This document shows positions 6,713 to 43,821 of a stretch of 49,732 nucleotides of DNA, piece by piece (within the stretch, counting starts at the first letter, position 1; every line of letters begins with the position of its first letter). The position numbers and the translations under genes are program-made. The DNA is taken from the IMG/VR virus record IMGVR_UViG_3300028283_000011, positions 1 to 49,732 of that record. One strand, 5' to 3'. The notes below the pieces were generated by a model. It was not told where the DNA came from, searched no databases, and saw nothing but the letters and a program-made list of their open reading frames with translations. The DNA is from a virus.

Positions 6713-8947
6713 TTACCAACTTCCACCAGCACCACCTCCACCAAAGGAACCGCCACCGAAACTCATACCACCTCCGCCGCCTCCACCGAAACCGCCTCCG
6801 CTGTAACCACTACCGTAGCTTGAGCTGGAAGAGCTATTACGTCTTCTTCTAGCTTTTTCTTCTTCTTCCTCTTCTTCGCGTTTTCTTCTTTCTTCTTCTT
6901 TCTTTCTTTGTATTCTTCTTCTTTCTTCTTCTTCCTCGTCTGCTAAACGACGTTTACCTGTTTGAAGAATATCAGTAAGTTTTTGAAGAATCTTTTGAAG
7001 ACTATCACTAAGTTTTAGAATATCTTGTGTTTGAGCTTTTATACCATCATAAGTACCACCAACTTCTACAGCTTTTTGTACTTCGTCTTTTTTGGTGTAT
7101 CCTTTATTTCTCCAAGCGTCGATTTCCTTTATTAATCTTTGTATTTCACTTTCGTTCTTTTGAACGTATTGTTTAGCAGTTACTATATCGTTAAATTTAG
7201 CAATAGGTCTGCCCATTTCAGTATCCATAGCACCAGCCTTTCTTCCGTATTCGTGTAGAAGATTTGTAGCCTGTGTTAAATCAGTCATATAAATATCACC
7301 TATTTGTTTTATATAACCCCTTAAAGATTCAATATCAGCCTCTGTTGTATTAACATTAGTATCGTAACCAAGTTCTATTACTTTAGCAGTATGCTTCTTA
7401 GCACTTTCCAATTTACTTAAAAGACTTGTTCTGATTTTTTCAAATCCCTGAATATTACTTGTAACATCAGAATATTGACTAGATAGTCCCTCGTATTTTT
7501 TGTAATAAGCAACTAACTTACCATACATGCTCTTATATTTTTCAACTGAATCATCCGATATATCAATATTCTCAAACTTCAATCCATTCATCATATTTAA
7601 AGCAGTTTGAGCCACATCCTTCATTTCAGATGGTTTTGTTTCATAACCCTTCAATCTATTATAAGTATCATTAACAGATATTTTAATTTTGTTTATTTCT
7701 CTTTCAATTCTTTGAATATCACCAAGTTCTGTCTTAACTAATTCTAATTGAGTAGCGATATTGTTTATACCTTTTTCGTTTCTCATTTTAAGAGTGGCTA
7801 GTCCTTCTGCTGCTTTTTTAAGACTAGCTAGTATTTCTTCGTCGTTGAATACTGGATCTCCACCCATTATTAATCTAGCGACGTCTTCGTCGAATTTAGC
7901 TATTTCAGCTTTAACTCTATTAATTTTAACCGCTAATTCTTTTCTTCTTCTAATACTACCACGAATTAAATAAGCCACTAAACCAATAACTAAAACCAAT
8001 AAGGCTATTTCACCAGCAGTAGCGAAGAAATTTTTAACATCTTCTTTTGCTTGTTTATCGTATTTGGCTTCCAAATCCTTTTTCATTTGAATAGGAATAC
8101 TACCAAACTCTTCTTTCATTCTTCCAATTAATTCTTTAAATCCTTCGTCGTAATTACCTTCTTTGAAATTAGGCACTAAACAGTTTTCAGCGAACCTTTT
8201 AGCTAAAGCATCTGGAAACATTCCTTCCATACCGTAACCAGTTGCTATATAATACTTTCTATCACCCATACTTGTAACGATTAATATACCGTTATTGGCA
8301 CCTTTTTTACCAACTCCCCATTTGTTAGCGAGTTTAACTGTAAAATCTGCTGGTTCTTGTCCGTAGAATGATGGTATAGTTAAAATTGCTATTTCGACAC
8401 CAGTTGTTTTTTCATATTTGAATAATACTTGATTCAAAGAATCTTCTATGCTTTGAGACATAAAATCACCGTAGTCACTAATAAGAGAAATACCTGTACC
8501 GTATCTCATTGGTTTTACATTATCAATATCAAAAGCGTATTTAGTATCACCAACTGGTACATTAAGAGTCCATTTATAATGTTTATGTCCGTCGTCATCT
8601 TCATGTTTTTGAACCTCACTCATTTTCAACACGTCGTCCAAAGATATTTTCGTGTTACTTTGTTTATTGAATATCGTTAATTTGTTTTGGATTTCTTCTG
8701 TATCATCAGCGGAAATGTGTTGTTCCCTAGTCAACATGGCTACAAATTTCGCTATTGAAATTTGTTCTTGTGGAACTGATTGTACCCATTCAATTTTATC
8801 TTGTAGGTTTGCCGCTTGAATTTTTGGTGGTACAACACCTAAATTTAATAACAACATAAATGTTGCCATCCAGGTTTTCCAACCCTCATTTAATTCATCT
8901 TCACCAGGGTACATGAATTTTTCGTAAGAAAGTATATATTCTGCCAT
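6713..8947 (-). CDS. TPM-domain membrane protein with Gly-rich tail and capsid-targeting-like leader
   Basis: 744 residues from the ATG at 8947; the frame is open 18 codons further, but that part overlaps the upstream gene. The leader starts MAEYILSYEKF and reaches L-N-E followed by Gly. A hydrophobic segment (about 25-45), a TPM (YgcG/Psb32-like) domain around 165-290 with GILIVTSMGDRKYYIATGYG and GNYDEGFKEL, one membrane helix near 317-333 (ALLVLVIGLVAYLIRG), a long helical and coiled-coil region, a basic/acidic RRRKEEE tract, and a Ser then Gly-rich tail ending AGGSW follow. TPM domains are membrane-linked and some have phosphatase activity. A Gly-rich tail is typical of bacterial YgcG-like proteins. 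Finding one in a phage with a packaging-type leader is unusual. Confidence 0.75.
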   Translation of the reverse strand: MAEYILSYEKFMYPGEDELNEGWKTWMATFMLLLNLGVVPPKIQAANLQDKIEWVQSVPQEQISIAKFVAMLTREQHISADDTEEIQNKLTIFNKQSNTKISLDDVLKMSEVQKHEDDDGHKHYKWTLNVPVGDTKYAFDIDNVKPMRYGTGISLISDYGDFMSQSIEDSLNQVLFKYEKTTGVEIAILTIPSFYGQEPADFTVKLANKWGVGKKGANNGILIVTSMGDRKYYIATGYGMEGMFPDALAKRFAENCLVPNFKEGNYDEGFKELIGRMKEEFGSIPIQMKKDLEAKYDKQAKEDVKNFFATAGEIALLVLVIGLVAYLIRGSIRRRKELAVKINRVKAEIAKFDEDVARLIMGGDPVFNDEEILASLKKAAEGLATLKMRNEKGINNIATQLELVKTELGDIQRIEREINKIKISVNDTYNRLKGYETKPSEMKDVAQTALNMMNGLKFENIDISDDSVEKYKSMYGKLVAYYKKYEGLSSQYSDVTSNIQGFEKIRTSLLSKLESAKKHTAKVIELGYDTNVNTTEADIESLRGYIKQIGDIYMTDLTQATNLLHEYGRKAGAMDTEMGRPIAKFNDIVTAKQYVQKNESEIQRLIKEIDAWRNKGYTKKDEVQKAVEVGGTYDGIKAQTQDILKLSDSLQKILQKLTDILQTGKRRLADEEEEERRRIQRKKEEERRKREEEEEEEKARRRRNSSSSSSYGSGYSGGGFGGGGGGGMSFGGGSFGGGGAGGSW

Positions 8948-8963
8948 ATTTATTTTTTTACTT

Positions 8964-9260
8964 TTAAATATTAAATATTTTATATTCAGCAAAATCACCA
9001 TAATCTGTTTCTATAAATATAAACATTCTGTTTAAATCTACTCTTGTTTCCAAATGATTTTGTAATGATCTATATTGTTCCTTGAACCCATCTGTAAAAA
9101 AATAATTATTATTGTTGACAAGTTCTAAATCGTGCATTCCAAATTCAATTTCTCCATCCCAAGAAGTATATATTTTATACAATTTCTTCTCATTCCATAT
9201 CTCCTCTCCGTATGGATCTAAATCATCTTTGGTCTCAAAAATTTTAAATTTCTTTATCAT
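8964..9260 (-). CDS. Small protein: capsid-targeting-like leader plus DPYGEEIW
   Basis: 98 residues. MIKKFKIFETKDD is a compact example of the shared leader (I-F-E then Thr), followed at once by DPYGEEIW at residues 15-22, then a single small domain of about 70 residues (LYKIYTSWDGEIEFG through FIETDYGDFAEYKIF). That domain resembles the repeated small beta-rich domains of the 2122 gene in layout (IYFVDENYKTYKV and YIEGEYGSFEIDTF). It may therefore be a minimal one-domain version of that cargo. The stop lies upstream of the ATG at 8947 of the TPM gene. A TTTAATATATAGCG element precedes it. Confidence 0.7.
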   Translation of the reverse strand: MIKKFKIFETKDDLDPYGEEIWNEKKLYKIYTSWDGEIEFGMHDLELVNNNNYFFTDGFKEQYRSLQNHLETRVDLNRMFIFIETDYGDFAEYKIFNI

Positions 9261-9265
9261 AATAA

Positions 9266-9279
9266 CGCTATATATTAAA
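9266..9279 (-). promoter_or_regulatory. TTTAATATATAGCG promoter-like element
   Basis: Minus-strand TTTAATATATAGCG ends 5 bases before the ATG at 9260. It is one of the best matches to the recurrent element and probably drives the 9260-6713 pair. Confidence 0.5.
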
Positions 9280-9308
9280 TATTAAAAACAAAAAATTAAT
9301 TTTTGAAT

Positions 9309-9352
9309 ATAATCATTTTGGATTAGATTTAATAAAAATAATCATTTTTGGA
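9309..9352. repeat. Direct repeat ATAATCATTTTGGA in divergent intergenic spacer
   Basis: ATAATCATTTTGGA at 9309-9322 recurs at 9338-9352 as ATAATCATTTTTGGA, 29 bases apart (near three helical turns), in the 127-base spacer between divergent genes at 9260 and 9388. A pair of protein-binding sites is possible. No binder is identified. Confidence 0.35.
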
Positions 9353-9361
9353 CTTGACTTG

Positions 9362-9374
9362 TTTAATATATAAC
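9362..9374 (+). promoter_or_regulatory. TTTAATATATAAC promoter-like element
   Basis: Plus-strand TTTAATATATAAC sits 13 bases before the ATG at 9388. It is a late-promoter-like element for the HNH endonuclease gene. Confidence 0.45.
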
Positions 9375-9387
9375 AATAAAAACTATT

Positions 9388-10119
9388 ATGATAAGGAAGT
9401 GTGAAACATGTGGATCTGATATGGAACTCAAAACGGTTCAAAAGAAAAACGCTAAAAATTTTGGTGAACTTATTGCTATTCATAAATATAAAAGATTCTG
9501 TTCTAAAAATTGTCAGTTAGAATGGCAGAAAAATTGTAATTGGGAAGATAGAGTTGGTAAAGTGGCTGCTGATAGAATAAGAGAAGAAGCTTCTATCAGA
9601 GTATCTGGTGAAAATAATCCAACACATAATCCGGATATAGCTAAAAAAGTATCTGATAGCCTAAAGGTTTATCTTAAAGAAAACCCAAGAAACGGTGATA
9701 AAAACCCTTTTTATGATAGAGAACATTCAGAAGAATATGTAAAATGGGCGTCTGAATCTAGAAAAGGAAAATGGTCATATAACAACGAACAATATATTAA
9801 AAAAGTAGAAAATCAACCAAGAGGTGAGAACTGTCATTTATGGAAAGGCGGAATATCTTTTGAACCATATTCTTTAGATTTTAATAAACAATTAAAAAAT
9901 AAAATTAAAGAAAGAGATAAATACACTTGTATATGCGGTAAAGAAACACAAAAATTAGCAATACATCATATAGATTATGATAAAATGAATTCAGATGAAA
10001 AAAATCTAATATCACTATGTTATAATTGTCACAGTAAAACTAATAGTAATAGAGAACATTGGAAAATATTTTTCATTGGAATTATAAACGAAAAATATGT
10101 CATTTTGACAGATAATTAA
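9388..10119 (+). CDS. HNH homing endonuclease with NUMOD3-like motif
   Basis: 243 residues. The N-terminus has a zinc-ribbon-like CETCGSDM then FCSKNCQ. The middle (about 70-125) has NUMOD3-like DNA-binding segments (NPTHNPDIAKKVSDSLK, GDKNPFYDREHSEE, SRKGKWS). The C-terminus is an HNH nuclease with CICG, LAIHHIDYDKMNSDEKNLI and SLCYNCHSKTN. The tandem His, the Asn and the second Cys pair fit a zinc-stabilised HNH active site. It is probably a free-standing mobile gene inserted between the packaged-protein genes and dnaK. No intron was seen around it. Confidence 0.88.
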   Translation: MIRKCETCGSDMELKTVQKKNAKNFGELIAIHKYKRFCSKNCQLEWQKNCNWEDRVGKVAADRIREEASIRVSGENNPTHNPDIAKKVSDSLKVYLKENPRNGDKNPFYDREHSEEYVKWASESRKGKWSYNNEQYIKKVENQPRGENCHLWKGGISFEPYSLDFNKQLKNKIKERDKYTCICGKETQKLAIHHIDYDKMNSDEKNLISLCYNCHSKTNSNREHWKIFFIGIINEKYVILTDN

Positions 10120-10185
10120 TATAATTAAACTTGGTATAGAATTTGAATAAATAAAAGAAAAAAATAATTTAGAAAGGAATATAAT

Positions 10186-12054
10186 ATGAATAAAAATAAA
10201 TGTGTTGGCATTGATCTTGGAACTACGAATTCGTGTGTAGCTGTTATGGAAAATGGAACCCCTGTCATTATTGTTAATAGTGAGGGTGAAAGAACAACCC
10301 CAAGTGTTGTTGCTTTCTTAGAAAAAGGTGAAAGAAAAATTGGTAATCCAGCTCGTAGACAAGCTGTTATGAATAGTAATAAAACTATTCACTCCATTAA
10401 ACGTTTTATGGGAGAAAAATATGATAATCTTACCAATGAAATTAATCGTTACGCTTATAGTGTTACAAAGAAACACGATACTGCCTACGTTAAAATTGAT
10501 GATAAAGATTATTCCCCACAAGAAATTAGTGCTATCATTCTTCAAAAAATGAAGAAAACAGCAGAAGATTATCTTGGATACGAAGTTAATAGAGCAGTTA
10601 TTACTGTACCAGCTTGGTTTAATAACGACCAACGCCAAGCTACAAAAGAAGCTGGTGAAATTGCTGGATTTAAAGTGGAACGTATTATAAACGAACCTAC
10701 TGCAGCCGCACTGGCTTACGGTCTTGATAAATTGAAAAAAGACATGAAGATAGTTGTCTTTGACTTTGGTGGTGGTACATTTGACGTATCTGTACTTGAC
10801 TCTGGTGACGGTGTATTTGAAGTGAAATCAACTAAGGGAGATGTACATCTTGGTGGTAATGATATTGATGATGTAATTATTGACTGGTTAGTTGCCGAAT
10901 TCAAAAAAGATAACGGAATGGATTTAAGAAAAGATCCAATGGCTTACCAGAGATTGAAAGACGGCGCTGAAAAAGCTAAGATTGAATTATCTTCTAACAC
11001 AGAAACAGAAATTAATCTTCCATATATTACAGCAGTAGATGGTATGCCAAAACATTTGGTATATAAGTTGAGTAGAGCTAAATTTGATCAAATTTCAGAA
11101 CCAGTATTCAAAAAACTTATTCCTATCTGTGAAGACGCTATGAGACTTTCAGGTTTAAATAAGAACCAAATTGATGAGGTTATTTTAGTAGGTGGTTCAA
11201 CTCGTATTCCAGCAGTTCAGAAGATTGTTAAAGATATATTTGGTAAAGAACCTAATAGATCTGTTAACCCAGATGAAGCAGTAGCCGCAGGTGCCGCTAT
11301 TCAAGGTGGTATCATAGGCGGTGAAGTTACAGATATTCTTCTTCTTGATGTTACTCCACTTTCATTGGGAATTGAAACTATGGGTGGTGTAATGACTAAA
11401 TTAGTTGAAGCTAATACAACTATTCCAACTGCTAAATCACAAATCTTCTCTACGGCATCTGATAATCAGCCAGGTGTAGAAATACATATCTTACAGGGAG
11501 AAAGACCAATGGCAAGTCAGAATAAGACTCTGGGTAGGTTCCATTTGGATAACTTACCACCAGCACCAAGAGGTATTCCACAGATTGATGTAAGATTTGA
11601 TATAAATGCTAATGGTATTCTTGAAGTTACTGCTCTTGATAAAGCAACAGGTAAACAACAGAATATCAGAATTGAAAATTCTTCAACACTTCCAAAGGAT
11701 GAAATTGAAAGAATGAAAGACGAAGCCAAAGTAAATGAAGAATCTGATAGAAAAGAAAAAGAGAAGATTGATAAGTTGAATATGGCTGATAGTATGATAT
11801 TCCAAACTGAAAAGAATATTAAAGAGTTTGGTGATAAATTAACTCAGAATGATAGAGACACTTTGAATGAAGTATTAGAAAGACTTAAAACTGCTCATAA
11901 ATCACAAAATGTAGACGATTGTGATATTTATATAAAAGATTTAAATGAGAAGTGGAACGTAATTTCTACTAGAATGTATCAAGAAACTGCATCTAAAGAA
12001 CAAGGACCAAAATCAGAAGATCCAGTAGATGTTGAATATGAAGAGGTAAAATAA
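10186..12054 (+). CDS. dnaK: Hsp70 chaperone DnaK
   Basis: 622 residues, full length for bacterial DnaK (about 640). The nucleotide-binding domain shows [10 protein letters not shown] (8-17), [10 protein letters not shown] (about 169) and [10 protein letters not shown] (about 192). The substrate-binding domain starts with [14 protein letters not shown] near 388, and the C-terminus ends DVEYEEVK, the usual EEVK tail. All ATPase phosphate-binding motifs look intact, so it should be an active ATP-driven cytoplasmic chaperone. AGAAAGGA 9-16 bases upstream of the ATG is a good ribosome site. No TTAATATATA element precedes it, unlike most late-type genes here. It converges with a gene encoding DnaJ-type zinc-finger repeats and shares a terminator with it. 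A complete DnaK in a phage is uncommon and points to a large genome. Confidence 0.97.
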
Positions 12055-32606: not shown

Positions 32607-33323
32607 ATGGGAAAAAATAATGTTAAATTCACCAATGATGAGTTTATTATCAAATCAAATTTGGTACATATGAATAGATACGATTATTCGCTTATCGATT
32701 ATAAAAACGCTCATACTAAAATTAAAATAATTTGTAAAGAACATGGAATATTTGAGCAGGAACCAAGAGCTCATTTACATGGTTATGGATGCCCTCAATG
32801 CTCTGGTAATAAAAGATTAACTAAAGAGATTTTCGTTAACAAATCTATGATAAAACATGGTAATAAGTATGATTATTCTTTATCCAATTATAAAAACAAT
32901 AACACAAACGTAAAAATTATTTGTAAAAAACATGGTATATTTGAACAAATACCATTTAATCATATGAAAGGTTGTGGATGTCCTAAATGCGATAATTATA
33001 GTGTTGGTGAACAAATAATAGAAAAAATATTAGAATCCAATAATGTAAAATTTGAATCTCAAAAACAATTCAACAATTGTTCCTTTAAAAATAAATTAAA
33101 GTTCGATTTCTATTTATCTGAAAAAAATTTATGTATAGAATTTGATGGAGATCAACATTTTAATAAATTTAGATTTGAAAAAAATGAAGATGGATTGAAT
33201 ATCAGGAAAAAAAGAGATCATATAAAGAATATATATTGTCAAGATAATAATATAAAACTCGTTAGAATAAAATTCACAGATAATATAGAAAATAAACTAA
33301 ACGAAATACTAAATGATAATTAA
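32607..33323 (+). CDS. Homing endonuclease: tandem zinc-finger repeats plus VSR-like nuclease
   Basis: 238 residues. Two tandem DUF723-like DNA-binding repeats of about 65 residues each contain HGNKYDYSLSNYKN, VKIICKKHGIFEQ and GCPKC. The C-terminal nuclease has KFDFYLSEKNLCIEFDGDQH, with Glu-x-Asp-x-Asp-x-His of the EDxHD/VSR-like homing family, and VRIKF at the end. Its 3' end overlaps the next gene by 11 bases, so insertion left that gene intact. It is probably a mobile free-standing gene. Confidence 0.88.
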   Translation: MGKNNVKFTNDEFIIKSNLVHMNRYDYSLIDYKNAHTKIKIICKEHGIFEQEPRAHLHGYGCPQCSGNKRLTKEIFVNKSMIKHGNKYDYSLSNYKNNNTNVKIICKKHGIFEQIPFNHMKGCGCPKCDNYSVGEQIIEKILESNNVKFESQKQFNNCSFKNKLKFDFYLSEKNLCIEFDGDQHFNKFRFEKNEDGLNIRKKRDHIKNIYCQDNNIKLVRIKFTDNIENKLNEILNDN

Positions 33324-34972: not shown

Positions 34973-34982
34973 ATTTTGTTTT

Positions 34983-34997
34983 ATTTGTATATATTGA
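34983..34997 (-). promoter_or_regulatory. TCAATATATACAAAT promoter-like element
   Basis: Minus strand, 10 bases before the ATG at 34972. Confidence 0.35.
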
Positions 34998-35054
34998 TAT
35001 TAAAAAATGACTTTTTACCAGTTCATAATGGACATATACAAATTGATAATTTAT

Positions 35055-35068
35055 TTTTAATATATAAT
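35055..35068 (+). promoter_or_regulatory. TTTTTAATATATAAT promoter-like element
   Basis: Plus strand, about 21 bases before the ATG at 35090. Its position supports that start over the longer open frame beginning at 34976. Confidence 0.45.
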
Positions 35069-35089
35069 AAAAAATATATTATCAGTTCG

Positions 35090-36010
35090 ATGGATGTTAA
35101 AGAATTGCAACAAAAAATATCTGATTCTTTTGAAATTTTTGGTTCTACTCCGATAGAAGAAAGATTAGATGACATAAAGAGGGAATTTCTTCATCTAATA
35201 AGGAGCGATGGTCCTAAGAGTTTAATGGAGGAAACAGGAGATTTAATGTCCAGTTTAATTCAATTGTGTAACGAGCATGGATGGAATTTAGAAGATATTA
35301 TCAATGGAACCTTATCTAAAATTCACAGACGTAAAGATCAATATCAAAAGTTAGGAAGAAGGATAGAGGTGGCCATACTGGGAGTGGCAGCTGACCCCCC
35401 GCATAACGGACATATTCAATTAGCACAACACGTATTAAATAATAGTGGAGTTATAGAAAAAGTTTGGATGATGCCTCCATACGCACACATGTACGGTAAA
35501 AAAATGGCTTCACCAGAAGATAGATTTGAAATGTGTAAATTAGCGGCTGAAAAAGATAGAAGAATAACAGCATTCAAATACGAAATAGAAAATAAATTAG
35601 CTGGGGAAACTTATTTCTTTTTCAAGAAATTACTAGCAGATAAAGAATATACTGATAAAAACGAATTCTCAATGATAATAGGTCTAGATAACGCTAACTC
35701 TTTTCATAAATGGGTAAACTATAAATATTTAGAAAGAATGGTTAGATTTATAGTTGTTCCTAGAAAAGGTGTAGAAAGAGATCCAAAAGTAGATTGGTAT
35801 TTAAGACCGCCTCATATTTTTATGAAAGAGGAAACTGATATAATGGAAATTTCTTCTACACAAGTAAGAGATATGTTAAAGAATGAAGATCCAAATATAA
35901 ATAAATTCTTAGATCCAAAGGTGGTACAATATATAAAAGAGCATAACTTATATGGTACAGGTGGTGTAATTGAAAGTTATAAAAAATTCATAAGAAATGG
36001 TAAGAATTAA
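35090..36010 (+). CDS. MazG-like pyrophosphohydrolase fused to NadD-like nucleotidyltransferase
   Basis: 306 residues. N-terminal MazG-like domain (about 1-85): LMEETGDLMSSLIQLC with the metal-binding Glu-Glu-x-Gly-Asp, then KIHRRKDQY. C-terminal nicotinate-nucleotide adenylyltransferase-like domain (about 90-295): GVAADPPHNGHIQLAQHV with the H-x-G-H motif, WMMPPYAHMYGKK, SMIIGLDNANSFHKW, and EISSTQVRDML, the I-S-S-T-x-x-R motif. Known roles are hydrolysis of nucleoside triphosphates and NAD(P)+ synthesis from mononucleotide plus ATP. The fusion points to nucleotide or NAD control during infection. The open frame reaches back to 34976 but has no ATG there. Confidence 0.88.
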   Translation: MDVKELQQKISDSFEIFGSTPIEERLDDIKREFLHLIRSDGPKSLMEETGDLMSSLIQLCNEHGWNLEDIINGTLSKIHRRKDQYQKLGRRIEVAILGVAADPPHNGHIQLAQHVLNNSGVIEKVWMMPPYAHMYGKKMASPEDRFEMCKLAAEKDRRITAFKYEIENKLAGETYFFFKKLLADKEYTDKNEFSMIIGLDNANSFHKWVNYKYLERMVRFIVVPRKGVERDPKVDWYLRPPHIFMKEETDIMEISSTQVRDMLKNEDPNINKFLDPKVVQYIKEHNLYGTGGVIESYKKFIRNGKN

Positions 36011-39601: not shown

Positions 39602-40288
39602 TTATATTGTAAGTGTTTTCATAATAAAGAAACTATCTATTATATCGTCCCAAGGTTTCGGTACGTTCTTCAATTTTAAAAGATCGTCCTTATATTTATT
39701 CAATAGTATAGATAACTTATCATTTCCATTCAAATCAATTAAAGCTTTCATCATATCTTTTTTAACAAAACTTCCGCCGGACACACCGTCTTTGCTTTTA
39801 TTGATCTTTTTATTTTTCGCTTTAGGACTTAAAGTGTAACCGTAAACTAACTCAGCGGTCATTGATTTTACGGTCATAGGTGAAAGTATGATCATCTTTT
39901 CCAATTTAGGAAGAGATAATAACTTTTGTCTTAAAAGAGTTGAAAAAGTTACAATATCTACTATACTATTAGTGTTCTTTAAACCGTAATTATAACCCTC
40001 AATAGCCAAAAGAGTCTTGTCTTTTTTATCCACGTTCCCAACTATCTTATTATATATCAAGTCAGTGACGTAATCGTATTCTCTTAATCTCATTATTTCG
40101 CTTTCAGTATAATTATCTATATCTTTGTAGGTATAGTTAATAAATTCGTAATCGATAGTGTCCATAGTTTTTTTGACCCAACCCACGTTTCTTTTGAGGG
40201 TGGTGAAGTTAGAAATGATTATTTCATCATCTCTTAATAAAGACATTCCTGTTGAATCTATTGATATGTCTATTCCTACTAAGTTCAT
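39602..40288 (-). CDS. RuvC-like resolvase
   Basis: 228 residues, close to RuvC-type nucleases (about 160-230). GIDISIDSTGMSLL gives the first-strand Asp7. LLAIEGYNYG gives Glu97. The C-terminus has PWDDIIDSFFI with Asp215 and Asp218. These are the four acidic metal ligands of the RNase H-like fold. MIILSPMTVKSM matches the usual P-x-x-V-K strand. A role in resolving branched replication or packaging DNA is inferred from the fold. It is divergent from the histidine kinase gene. Confidence 0.8.
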   Translation of the reverse strand: MNLVGIDISIDSTGMSLLRDDEIIISNFTTLKRNVGWVKKTMDTIDYEFINYTYKDIDNYTESEIMRLREYDYVTDLIYNKIVGNVDKKDKTLLAIEGYNYGLKNTNSIVDIVTFSTLLRQKLLSLPKLEKMIILSPMTVKSMTAELVYGYTLSPKAKNKKINKSKDGVSGGSFVKKDMMKALIDLNGNDKLSILLNKYKDDLLKLKNVPKPWDDIIDSFFIMKTLTI

Positions 40289-40317: not shown

Positions 40318-40332
40318 TTTTTATATATAGAT
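40318..40332 (+). promoter_or_regulatory. TTTTTATATATAGAT promoter-like element
   Basis: Plus strand, 18 bases before the ATG at 40351. It supports this start for the histidine kinase. Confidence 0.45.
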
Positions 40333-40350: not shown

Positions 40351-42564
40351 ATGATTAATTTTTTATTTGAGAACATGTTAGAAGGGGTGGCCGTTCACGA
40401 GATGATTTACGATGAAAACGGAGTTCCAATTGATTACAGAATATTGAAAGTCAATAAGGGTTTTGAGGACATTTTGGATTTAAAAAAAGATAATATTATA
40501 GGTAAATTAGCGAGTGAAGTGTACGGTGACATACCAGCTTTGGAAGAATATAGTGACGTGGTTTTAAATAAGAAGTCAACACAATTTGAGTTTTATTATC
40601 ATAAAATAAGAAGACATTTTCATGTTTCAGCTTCGTGTTGGGAAAATGGATTTGTTACTATTTTTTCAGACGTTACTGAATCTAAAAGTATATTGGATAA
40701 TTATAAATCTTTATTAAAGGCCATACCAGATATGATGGCAAGAGTTAATTCGGAAGGGAAAATATTAGATATAAAACCAGGAGAGGGTATTTATTCAGAT
40801 GTCGGTCAATCGATAATTTATATAGGCATGAATATATTAGATTTACCTTTCGGTGAAGTTGTAGTAAAAGAGTTTAAAAAAATAATAGATGAAGTTTTAG
40901 AAAAAAATGAACCAATTGAATTTTGTTATTCTATTATTGTAAAAGGAGGCGAAAGACATTATTACTCAAGGACAGTAAAAAACGGACAACACGAGGTTAT
41001 TGTTATAGTAAGAGATATAACAGAAGAGAGAAATATTGGTAGAGATCTTAGAAACTCAAAAGATTTCACTGAAAATTTAATGAACACAGCCAACGTTATG
41101 ATTATCGGGTTAGATCTCAACGCCAACGTAAACATTTTTAATAAATCAGCAGAGAAATTAACTGGTTACAATAAAGATGAAGTGATCGGTAAAAATTGGT
41201 TTAATGAACTATCGATGTTGCCTAAAAACGAAAATATTAGAATAAATAATGTTTTCAACAATCTAATTGGGCAAGATGAATCTGATAACATTGTTGAAAA
41301 TACAATTATCACGAAAGACGGGGAAATTAAATACATTTTATGGCAAAACAACGAAGTGATAGAAAATGGTAAAATAAATGGTATAATATCATTTGGACTA
41401 GATATAAGTGATAGAAGGAAATTTGAAGAAGAACTCATGGAAGCTAAAAACAAAGCTGAACAATCTGATAAAATGAAACTGGAATTTTTAGCCAATATGA
41501 GCCACGATCTTCGTACACCAATGAACTCTATTATAGGATTTTCAGATCTCTTAAGGACTAATAATCTTACAAAATCAGAAAAATCAGATTATATAAATAC
41601 CATAATAAGTAACGGTAAATTTTTGATGGCTCTTATTGACGATATTATTGATATATCTAAAATAGATGCTGGTAATTTGAAAGTCGAAAATAAAGATTTC
41701 GAATTAAATAAACTTATGGAAGAACTTCGACTCTCTCACTCTAAACAAATTAAAGATAAAAATATTGATATTATTATAGACGTAGACGTGAATAAAAATG
41801 TAATATTAAATTCAGATAAATATAGATTAAGACAAATTCTCATGAACCTTATCGGTAACGCTATAAAATTTACTAACGATGGGTACGTTAAATTCGGATA
41901 TAAAATATTGAATAATAAACAATTAGAAATATATGTAGAAGATACTGGTGTCGGTATTGCTCGTCAAAACCAGAGAATTATATTTGAAAGATTTAAACAG
42001 ATAGATAATAATAATAAATTTAAAGGGGCTGGTCTTGGTTTATCCATTACAAGATCTTTAGTTGAGTTGTTAGGATTTAAGGAGATAAGATTAATTTCAG
42101 AATTAGATAGAGGTAGTAAATTTTATTTCAACTGTTCTTATCAAATTAAGCCTTATGATTATATGAGTGGGATCAGAGAAAAATCAAAACATAAAAAAAT
42201 GGATTTTAGTGGTAAAAATATTTTAGTAGTTGAAGATAATCAAGAAAGTAGAACTATTATTAAATTTTATTTATATCACACCAAAGCTAATATAATAGAA
42301 ATAACAGATGGCACTGAAGTTTTAGATATAGTTAAAAGTAATCATATAGATTTAGTTTTATTAGATATAGGATTACCAGGTAAAAATGGTTACGATGTAT
42401 TGAAAGAGTTAAGGGATTACGATAATAGATTACCTATTATTATAGAATCTGCGTTAGCTATGCCAGATCAAAAAAGTAAAGCTTTTAATTTAGGGTGCGA
42501 CGATTTTATATCTAAACCTTTTACCAGAGAAGATTTTTTAAACAAAATAGACAATTTACTATAA
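40351..42564 (+). CDS. Hybrid sensor histidine kinase (PAS-PAS-PAS-HisKA-HATPase-REC)
   Basis: 737 residues. PAS-like domains lie at about 5-105 (YRILKVNKGFEDILDLKKDN), about 110-225 and about 230-345 (NVNIFNKSAEKLTGYNKDEV). HisKA has FLANMSHDLRTPMNSIIGF with His385. HATPase_c has NLIGNAIKF (Asn499), DTGVGIA (Asp531), FERFKQID and GAGLGLS (about 559). The C-terminal receiver has VVEDN, LVLLDIGLPG with Asp672, and SKPF with Lys722. All key catalytic residues are present. No membrane segment is seen from this start, so it is soluble. An open frame back to 40252 adds a hydrophobic stretch but overlaps the resolvase gene. A complete hybrid kinase is very unusual in a phage. Confidence 0.93.
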   Translation: MINFLFENMLEGVAVHEMIYDENGVPIDYRILKVNKGFEDILDLKKDNIIGKLASEVYGDIPALEEYSDVVLNKKSTQFEFYYHKIRRHFHVSASCWENGFVTIFSDVTESKSILDNYKSLLKAIPDMMARVNSEGKILDIKPGEGIYSDVGQSIIYIGMNILDLPFGEVVVKEFKKIIDEVLEKNEPIEFCYSIIVKGGERHYYSRTVKNGQHEVIVIVRDITEERNIGRDLRNSKDFTENLMNTANVMIIGLDLNANVNIFNKSAEKLTGYNKDEVIGKNWFNELSMLPKNENIRINNVFNNLIGQDESDNIVENTIITKDGEIKYILWQNNEVIENGKINGIISFGLDISDRRKFEEELMEAKNKAEQSDKMKLEFLANMSHDLRTPMNSIIGFSDLLRTNNLTKSEKSDYINTIISNGKFLMALIDDIIDISKIDAGNLKVENKDFELNKLMEELRLSHSKQIKDKNIDIIIDVDVNKNVILNSDKYRLRQILMNLIGNAIKFTNDGYVKFGYKILNNKQLEIYVEDTGVGIARQNQRIIFERFKQIDNNNKFKGAGLGLSITRSLVELLGFKEIRLISELDRGSKFYFNCSYQIKPYDYMSGIREKSKHKKMDFSGKNILVVEDNQESRTIIKFYLYHTKANIIEITDGTEVLDIVKSNHIDLVLLDIGLPGKNGYDVLKELRDYDNRLPIIIESALAMPDQKSKAFNLGCDDFISKPFTREDFLNKIDNLL

Positions 42565-42587: not shown

Positions 42588-42866
42588 ATGTACGTAATAA
42601 CAGATTTAAGAAGAAAACAGATAAATGATTACATGTCATCAATCGAATTAAATGAAGAATCAATCAGCGTTAGTCAAATAAAGAGTGATCTTCAAAGAAT
42701 ACTAGGTGAAAAGCCCGGTGTTGAATTAAAGTACAAAACAGACGCCATGCTTGTAGAAGGTGGTCAAAAGGTCAGAAAAAAAGGTATATTAGAATCAATT
42801 ACGATCTTTTATACCTTTGAAGATATGGATGGACCACACTTCGATAGAGTTTCATATTTTGTTTAA
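42588..42866 (+). CDS. Hypothetical protein
   Basis: 92 residues, not recognised. Seen: helix YVITDLRRKQINDYMSSIEL, a segment ESISVSQIKSDLQRILGEKP, and a beta-rich end (GILESITIFYTFEDMDGPHF). It lies 23 bases after the histidine kinase stop and is probably co-transcribed with it. Its stop overlaps the convergent GH16 stop in TTAA. Confidence 0.6.
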   Translation: MYVITDLRRKQINDYMSSIELNEESISVSQIKSDLQRILGEKPGVELKYKTDAMLVEGGQKVRKKGILESITIFYTFEDMDGPHFDRVSYFV

Positions 42867-43792
42867 TTCTTTTTATAGGCTCTAAAATAATCACAATATA
42901 TGCTCTTTGGTACATCAGCAGGATTTGGACCATATTCCTTATCGTATGTATAGTTGAATGTTATTAAAGATAGCATATCTCTTGTTGGAATGTGTTTATC
43001 TAAAACATAGACAGCTAGATTATCAATATACCATACCACTTTATCTGGTGTCCACTCACAGGCGTAAATATGATAATCATTGGCTAAGAAATCTTTTCCT
43101 GGGAATTTCAATCTTCTACCTTTTTGTTCATTTTTTGTTTGAGCAAATAATGCGTCAATGAAATCCTGTTTTTGTTGTGTCCACTCGGGTTGTTGTAAAT
43201 AACGAATTGTATCATCAAAATCAGTAGCAACATAACCATATACTTGATAGATTTGATCGTATATAGATTGTATTTGCTTAGCGTTCGTCCACGTATTTCT
43301 CCAGTGTAAAGTCATTGTGAAATATGAGCTATCATCACCCATTAATTCAAAAATATCAATTTCTGGAGGCCAACTATCAGAAGAACTTAACCAAAATGCA
43401 GGCCAGTACTTAATTCCCCCAGGTGATAATTTTTCTCTTGCTTCAAAATAACCGTATTTGGTGTTGAAGAAATTCCAACTATAAAGTCCACCAGATTTAA
43501 CTAAAGGTTCGTCTGGCACATTATTTAAATCAGATGTTAAAACAGCGTCACTTCCTGATTGTGTAACCTGTGATTGTTTAAAAATGACCATATCCCTTTG
43601 GCATCCCCATTGTTCACACCATCTCCAAGTATTCCAATCAATAGGTTGATCAAATTCATCAGCGTACACTTTTGTATATCCTAATTTGTCTGGTGAATTG
43701 TTGTGTTCTCTTTTAAAATAATTTGTAAACCACGCTTTTGTGTAGAAACGAACATAGTACCAACCATTAGTCAGCCATGTTTTGAAACTCAT
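42863..43792 (-). CDS. GH16-family glycoside hydrolase
   Basis: 309 residues from the ATG at 43792; an earlier in-frame ATG at 43813 lies within a promoter-like AAATATATG. Catalytic motif WPPEIDIFELMG with Glu144, Asp146 and Glu149 fits the GH16 E-I-D-I-x-E signature (nucleophile, assisting Asp, acid/base). Other GH16 landmarks are YADEFDQPIDWNTWRW at the N-terminus, KSGGLYSWNFFNTKYGYFEA, and the C-terminal HIYACEWTPDKVVWYIDNL. The family hydrolyses beta-1,3- and beta-1,4-glucans, agarose, carrageenan or related polymers. The substrate cannot be read off. No signal peptide, so it is a possible tail or lysis-stage depolymerase. The N-terminal 25 residues are aromatic. Confidence 0.88.
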   Translation of the reverse strand: MSFKTWLTNGWYYVRFYTKAWFTNYFKREHNNSPDKLGYTKVYADEFDQPIDWNTWRWCEQWGCQRDMVIFKQSQVTQSGSDAVLTSDLNNVPDEPLVKSGGLYSWNFFNTKYGYFEAREKLSPGGIKYWPAFWLSSSDSWPPEIDIFELMGDDSSYFTMTLHWRNTWTNAKQIQSIYDQIYQVYGYVATDFDDTIRYLQQPEWTQQKQDFIDALFAQTKNEQKGRRLKFPGKDFLANDYHIYACEWTPDKVVWYIDNLAVYVLDKHIPTRDMLSLITFNYTYDKEYGPNPADVPKSIYCDYFRAYKKN

Positions 43793-43807
43793 GTTGTAAA
43801 ATAAATT

Positions 43808-43821
43808 GCACATATATTTAG
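43808..43821 (-). promoter_or_regulatory. CCTAAATATATG promoter-like element
   Basis: The minus-strand element CCTAAATATATG covers the longer ATG at 43813, so the start at 43792 is preferred. It is closer to the T4 TATAAATA form than most copies here. Confidence 0.35.

Follow-up and report, generated by a model that had tools for sequence, protein, structure and literature searches.

The hybrid histidine kinase gene in the window (the whole stretch of DNA analysed, 49,732 nucleotides) is best explained as encoding a soluble, catalytically intact kinase of Bacteroidota origin, kept at a fixed locus and reading the infected cell, with the signal leaving through the host phosphorelay; this explanation as a whole is given about an even chance. 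The kinase probably tells these viruses what condition the infected cell is in. As an infection proceeds, an intracellular cue would be sensed by the cytoplasmic PAS domains, His385 would be autophosphorylated and the phosphate would pass to Asp672, from where it would mainly be handed on to phosphorelay proteins of the host, either an HPt or a response regulator; the stand-alone receiver of the phage is a possible extra shuttle. Through the swapping of input modules onto a constant core, each phage lineage could retune which host state gets read. The rewiring of host signalling or sensing of infection state proposed by the first-pass annotation would fit the predicted anatomy, namely a soluble PAS sensor, intact catalysis, no phage HPt, and purifying selection. 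Host-like functions are numerous in the phages with the largest genomes, and the kinase bears on whether the host state is actively read by them.

The open reading frame at 40351-42564 (+) is intact and encodes 737 aa from an ATG start, with 87% full-length amino acid identity to its counterpart in the huge phage genome LR756501. Pfam gave the order PAS-PAS-PAS-HisKA-HATPase-REC, comprising an N-terminal PAS module as the exchangeable input part (residues 1-114, 40351-40692 (+), with PAS_8 at residues 5-66), a second PAS domain (PAS_4, residues 123-227, 40717-41031 (+)), a third PAS domain (residues 241-352, 41071-41406 (+)), the HisKA phospho-acceptor domain (PF00512, E = 1.7e-18, residues 376-441, 41476-41673 (+)), the HATPase_c ATP-binding domain (PF02518, E = 9e-21, residues 489-594, 41815-42132 (+)), and the receiver domain (Response_reg, PF00072, E = 5e-25, residues 624-733, 42220-42549 (+)). 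All domain matches are above the Pfam curated cut-offs and far beyond chance. The phospho-acceptor His385 (41503-41505) lies in an SHDLRT motif found in every kinase member read, the ATP-binding boxes are conserved as N499/N503 (N box), D531xGxG (G1), F545/F548 (F), and G559xGxG (G2), and the receiver carries the acidic pair E628/D629, the phospho-Asp D672 (42364-42366), and K722 (42514-42516). The three PAS-like regions, ATP-binding boxes, and receiver reported by the first-pass annotation were all recovered by Pfam and the residue check, and its numbering of His385, Asp672, and Lys722 was correct.

These signature residues are invariant between the window and LR756501 and are kept in more distant relatives too; judged by its residues, the kinase appears catalytically intact. 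It is most likely soluble and cytoplasmic, since in LR756501 the counterpart has the same ATG start, without a hydrophobic segment. A TTG start at 40252, which would add a hydrophobic N-terminal stretch, was rejected because it has no counterpart in LR756501. The AlphaFold model (mean pLDDT 55) was too poor for proposing a PAS ligand from structure. By fold, the protein is an ordinary hybrid kinase.

The window is an IMG/VR virus record (IMGVR_UViG_3300028283_000011, 49.7 kb) that is collinear with LR756501 from about 4.4 kb to its end. Between 25.0 and 49.7 kb, 85% of it is covered by LR756501 at 88.8% DNA identity, and over the first 25 kb, 64% is covered at 88.5%. LR756501 and LR756503, both 735,411 bp, are probably one genome deposited twice. 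The collinearity, and the recurrence of this locus in another five independent phage records, bear out the earlier placement of the kinase in a phage, and indicate that the window comes from part of a huge phage genome and not from a host; a prophage-free host region, which was considered, is not the case. In a study of huge phages, all those above 634 kb were predicted to replicate in Bacteroidetes (PMC7162821). The relatives of the kinase were found by scanning IMG/VR viral contigs with alignments, whereas a single-protein scan of viral contigs gave none, and the phage database held no full-length match besides LR756501/LR756503. Judged from their names and annotations, many of the kinase matches found in records labelled as phage seem to be bacterial DNA.

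In every relative, the kinase lies between a divergent gene of 228-243 aa and a co-directional gene of 92-103 aa. This locus was found in LR756501 (L002) and in the contigs L007, L011, L012, L075, and L076; L011 and L012 are the same sequence in two contigs and were counted once, giving six independent records including the window. In the window, the divergent gene (39602-40288, -) encodes 228 aa with a RuvC/RNase H-like start recognized by eye and no Pfam family. The co-directional gene (42588-42866, +) encodes 92 aa with a predicted helix-helix-sheet fold (pLDDT 81), which rules it out as an HPt, and its one Foldseek match is an uncharacterised marine phage protein. A dedicated role of this protein as a kinase partner is unlikely, because weak homologues occur in kinase-less huge phages. 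The short divergent intergenic region contains TTTATATATAGA (40320-40331, +), a candidate promoter element present once in the window against 0.11 expected; it is kept in the window, LR756501, L007, and L011, and is not exactly conserved in L075/L076. Adjoining the kinase locus, a glycosyl hydrolase family 16 protein is encoded at 42863-43813 (-); it is also present in LR756501 and L011, and absent from L007.

While the core is constant, the input ends differ between records. The kinases of the window and LR756501 consist of one PAS domain in front of a PAS-PAS-HisKA-HATPase-REC core. The L011 kinase (629 aa) is this core only, and the L007 kinase (981 aa) carries REC-PAS-PAS before the same core; its input-end receiver bears the usual receiver residues, as if it might be driven by another kinase. 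The L075 kinase (1051 aa) has an N-terminal PAS, further PAS domains, and a GAF domain, followed by HisKA-HATPase-REC. The L076 kinase (655 aa) has PAS-PAS, a GAF-like region, and HisKA-HATPase, and is without a C-terminal receiver. The GAF of L075 passes the Pfam cut-off, while that of L076 is assigned from its alignment to L075 (48% over 571 aa). The N-terminal PAS of L075 is 57% identical to that of the window, and the module is absent from L007 and L011.

The same deep split (100/100 each time) was recovered in separate trees of the kinase core and of each of its two flanking genes, with the window, LR756501, and L007 on one side and L011, L075, and L076 on the other; the order inside the latter group varies from gene to gene among the three trees. 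Judged from these sequences, the kinase locus is inherited vertically. The N-terminal PAS occurs on both sides of the deep split, in the window and in L075, but is missing in L007/L011, so loss, exchange, or both must have occurred. When the cellular kinases, a limited sample, were included for the phylogenetic check, the phage members formed a clade of their own (100/100 with four members, 99/97 with six members), nearest to Bacteroidota kinases and not to most of the sampled Desulfobacterota/Campylobacterota ones. The kinase was probably acquired once from a Bacteroidota cell by the ancestor of the huge-phage clade and kept at one locus since.

These results bear on whether the gene is only a passenger of no use to the phage, being either a host gene picked up recently or host sequence that entered the assembly. 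Such an origin would agree with three other phages of 635-642 kb (LR756502, LR745206, and LR756504), in which no histidine kinase was found, and from which it follows that the kinase is not essential to all such phages; both flanking genes have distant homologues in these three phages, at widely separated positions. However, the kinase is intact at one locus in all six independent records, its dN/dS between the window and LR756501 is 0.07, its clade stands far from the sampled cellular genes (about 40% identity or less), and host DNA would imply that the same mis-assembly had hit all six records, which makes the passenger explanation highly improbable.

Between the window and LR756501, the dN/dS of the kinase was 0.074 overall, 0.021 for HisKA, 0.031 for HATPase, 0.046 for REC, 0.05 for the N-terminal PAS, and 0.12 for PAS 2 and 3, the ratios being approximate as some dS values are near saturation. 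All kinase domains appear to be under purifying selection. Among codons for the same residue, synonymous differences were more frequent in kinase residues 1-600 (177/498) than in five neighbouring genes (221/1096; Fisher p 1.4e-10, with the residue-600 boundary picked after the domain dN/dS table was known), and the receiver end is near background again. This suggests that most of the kinase gene was replaced by recombination with a more distant allele, in an exchange between phages; a local difference in synonymous constraint over residues 1-600 is another possible source of the excess.

The constraint on the catalytic domains also bears on an inhibitory role, in which the kinase would mainly be a phosphatase, decoy, or phosphate sink that drains host response regulators and mutes the host stress response. 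An HDLRT motif after the HisKA histidine would permit phosphatase activity, and such a motif at His385, a receiver without an output domain, and a conserved core with variable inputs are all consistent with this role. A decoy, however, needs neither an intact ATP-binding domain (dN/dS 0.03) nor several sensor domains, and the receiver has been lost in L076, so that the muting of host regulators is considered unlikely.

The possible partners of the kinase were searched for. In the window, no receiver (PF00072) was found besides that of the kinase itself. Over the complete 735-kb genome of LR756501, PF00072 matched nothing but the kinase itself and, about 312 kb from it at 350.3-350.6 kb, a stand-alone receiver of 123 aa, which is the candidate output partner from the genome search. 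This receiver is strongly constrained (dN/dS 0.02), and a further phage contig carries it with 98% identity; a recent duplication of the kinase receiver is not supported as its origin, as it is no closer to that receiver than to cellular ones. The same search gave no DNA-binding response regulator and no regulator with an output domain in LR756501, so the earlier observation that no DNA-binding response regulator is seen in the window holds for this whole genome as well. No HPt (PF01627, E up to 10) was found in LR756501 or the L007 contig, with matches in 12/14 control genomes as the positive control; an HPt too divergent for Pfam would escape this search. Apart from the kinase, the sole PF02518 match in LR756501 was a type II topoisomerase-like protein, which was therefore discarded as a second histidine kinase; it is one long frame of about 1,100 aa, with the region concerned at 680.5-680.9 kb (L006). 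The three kinase-less phages each have one HATPase match in an ORF of about 620 aa, and that of LR756502, the one read of the three, is topoisomerase-like.

Judged by LR756501, with neither an HPt nor a regulator with an output domain, and with the window as a 49.7-kb fragment, a complete phosphorelay is not encoded. The lack of an HPt (LR756501, L007 contig) and of a DNA-binding regulator (LR756501) means that the relay would either stop at the stand-alone receiver or continue into proteins not encoded by the phage, and exit mainly to host phosphorelay proteins is preferred on this basis. The L076 kinase, lacking a C-terminal receiver, cannot signal through a His-Asp-His-Asp relay, and in this phage at any rate the receiver has to be a protein distinct from the kinase. 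The stand-alone receivers of LR756501 and L075 count against the host relay, as they could be a phage-internal output.

In such an internal circuit, the kinase would phosphorylate the stand-alone receiver of the phage, which would control a phage or host protein, and host two-component proteins would not be needed. Stand-alone receivers that bind and control proteins are exemplified by CheY, DivK, and Spo0F. In line with this, the complete LR756501 has exactly one kinase and one constrained stand-alone receiver, L075 carries a different stand-alone receiver (114 aa) 4.3 kb from its kinase, the receiver-less kinase of L076 needs a separate receiver, and in the unrelated phages L088 and L089 a kinase and a stand-alone receiver adjoin. 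On the other hand, the receiver of LR756501 is remote from its kinase and is no orthologue of that in L075, LR756504 has a weak receiver of 160 aa without a kinase, and no stand-alone receiver was found in the 114-kb L007, 37-kb L076, and short L011/L012 contigs, though all of these are fragments. The internal circuit is a possible but somewhat doubtful alternative to the host relay.

A more specific proposal is an infection-state circuit belonging to the megaphage clade itself, in which phage-encoded stand-alone receivers, driven by the kinase with its interchangeable sensors, would act on lysis or some other event at the membrane. It is hinted at only by stand-alone receiver genes that adjoin genes for small membrane proteins: in L075 (L075:2732-3435), the receiver overlaps by 4 bases a membrane/coiled-coil gene, the membrane protein having very weak holin/hemolysin PHROG matches, and in LR756501 and L040 (L040:9787-10372), the receivers come directly after the gene for a membrane protein of 52-61 aa. 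To these hints belong also the unrelated L089, where a membrane protein closes the kinase-receiver set, and L088, whose set is near an endolysin. This proposal is regarded as quite improbable.

In comparison with known systems, the Bacteroidota PAS hybrid kinases (Draconibacterium L013-L015; L055, L056) have the HisKA-HATPase-REC core in common with the window kinase (35-41% identity) and are the nearest in the trees, but the phage kinases group by themselves as a separate clade and occupy one constant position in phage genomes, and the window kinase is without membrane, HPt, and DNA-binding parts. The Bacteroidota HK-REC-HTH_AraC type has a periplasmic sensor, membrane segments, and a C-terminal DNA-binding domain, whereas the window kinase has none of these and ends after the receiver. 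Five PHROGs of phage histidine/hybrid kinases (phrog_20458, phrog_857, phrog_5982, phrog_10912, and phrog_18358) match the window kinase with E-values down to 6.6e-87; no function is given for these families, and one is named only 'kinase'. The Clostridioides difficile phage phiCDHM1 encodes a homologue of the agr sensor kinase AgrC without the response regulator AgrA (PMC7790227); this is a quorum-sensing receptor system of a temperate phage, in contrast to the soluble PAS hybrid kinase of a megaphage described here. The phoR genes of soil-virome phages encode sensor kinases whose ATP-binding residues are intact and whose dN/dS is below 1 (PMC10987575), but concern a phosphate regulon kinase as an auxiliary metabolic gene, and a fixed locus with exchanged sensors is not described there. 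The cRec of jumbo phages is tied to NAD/ADP-ribose enzymes and never occurs with histidine kinases (PMC7824862; PMC9503650); it is a receiver-like fold in large phages, while the receiver of the window kinase is a standard Response_reg.

Histidine kinases of mirusviruses have also been described, and in the open-access literature on histidine kinases in huge, jumbo, or mega phages no description of the window kinase was found. Histidine kinases in viruses are thus already known, and what is new and unusual is that megaphages have passed the kinase on vertically at one set position, with the core held constant, the inputs differing and exchangeable, and the receiver sometimes missing. The kinase and the candidate receivers provide defined proteins with which phosphotransfer, be it to the host or within the phage, can be assayed, and the variety of sensor ends amounts to a natural experiment on the cues that these phages need to detect.

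Further kinase genes were observed in other viral contigs. In L088 (L088:8585-11837, IMG/VR 3300036939_000082, 189 kb) and L089 (L089:8891-11931, IMG/VR 3300025018_000098, 169 kb), immediately after a PAS/GAF histidine kinase come a stand-alone receiver of 138-142 aa and then another receiver protein; the L088 set is near an endolysin, and the order in L089 is kinase-receiver-receiver-membrane protein, the last with a 4-base overlap. The 31-kb contig L081 (IMG/VR 3300029822_001155) encodes two different hybrid histidine kinases of 896 and 606 aa (L081:2280-4970 and 9080-10900). The 135-kb contig L085 (IMG/VR 3300010167_000015) encodes a TPR-membrane-HisKA-HATPase kinase without a receiver (L085:3580-5916), and PF00072 gave no receiver at all in this contig.

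Other genes in the window encode a TPM-domain protein of 762 aa (6713-9001, -), a full-length HSP70/DnaK (10186-12054, +; Pfam E = 6e-241), and an HNH/homing endonuclease (32607-33323, +). A MazG-like pyrophosphohydrolase fused to a NadD-like nucleotidyltransferase domain is encoded in LR756501 (L002:2791-3711), with its window counterpart probably at 34976-36010 (+). In addition, translation initiation factor IF-3-like proteins were recognized by eye in L011 (10737-11315), L076 (8815-9333), and L081 (11214-11738).
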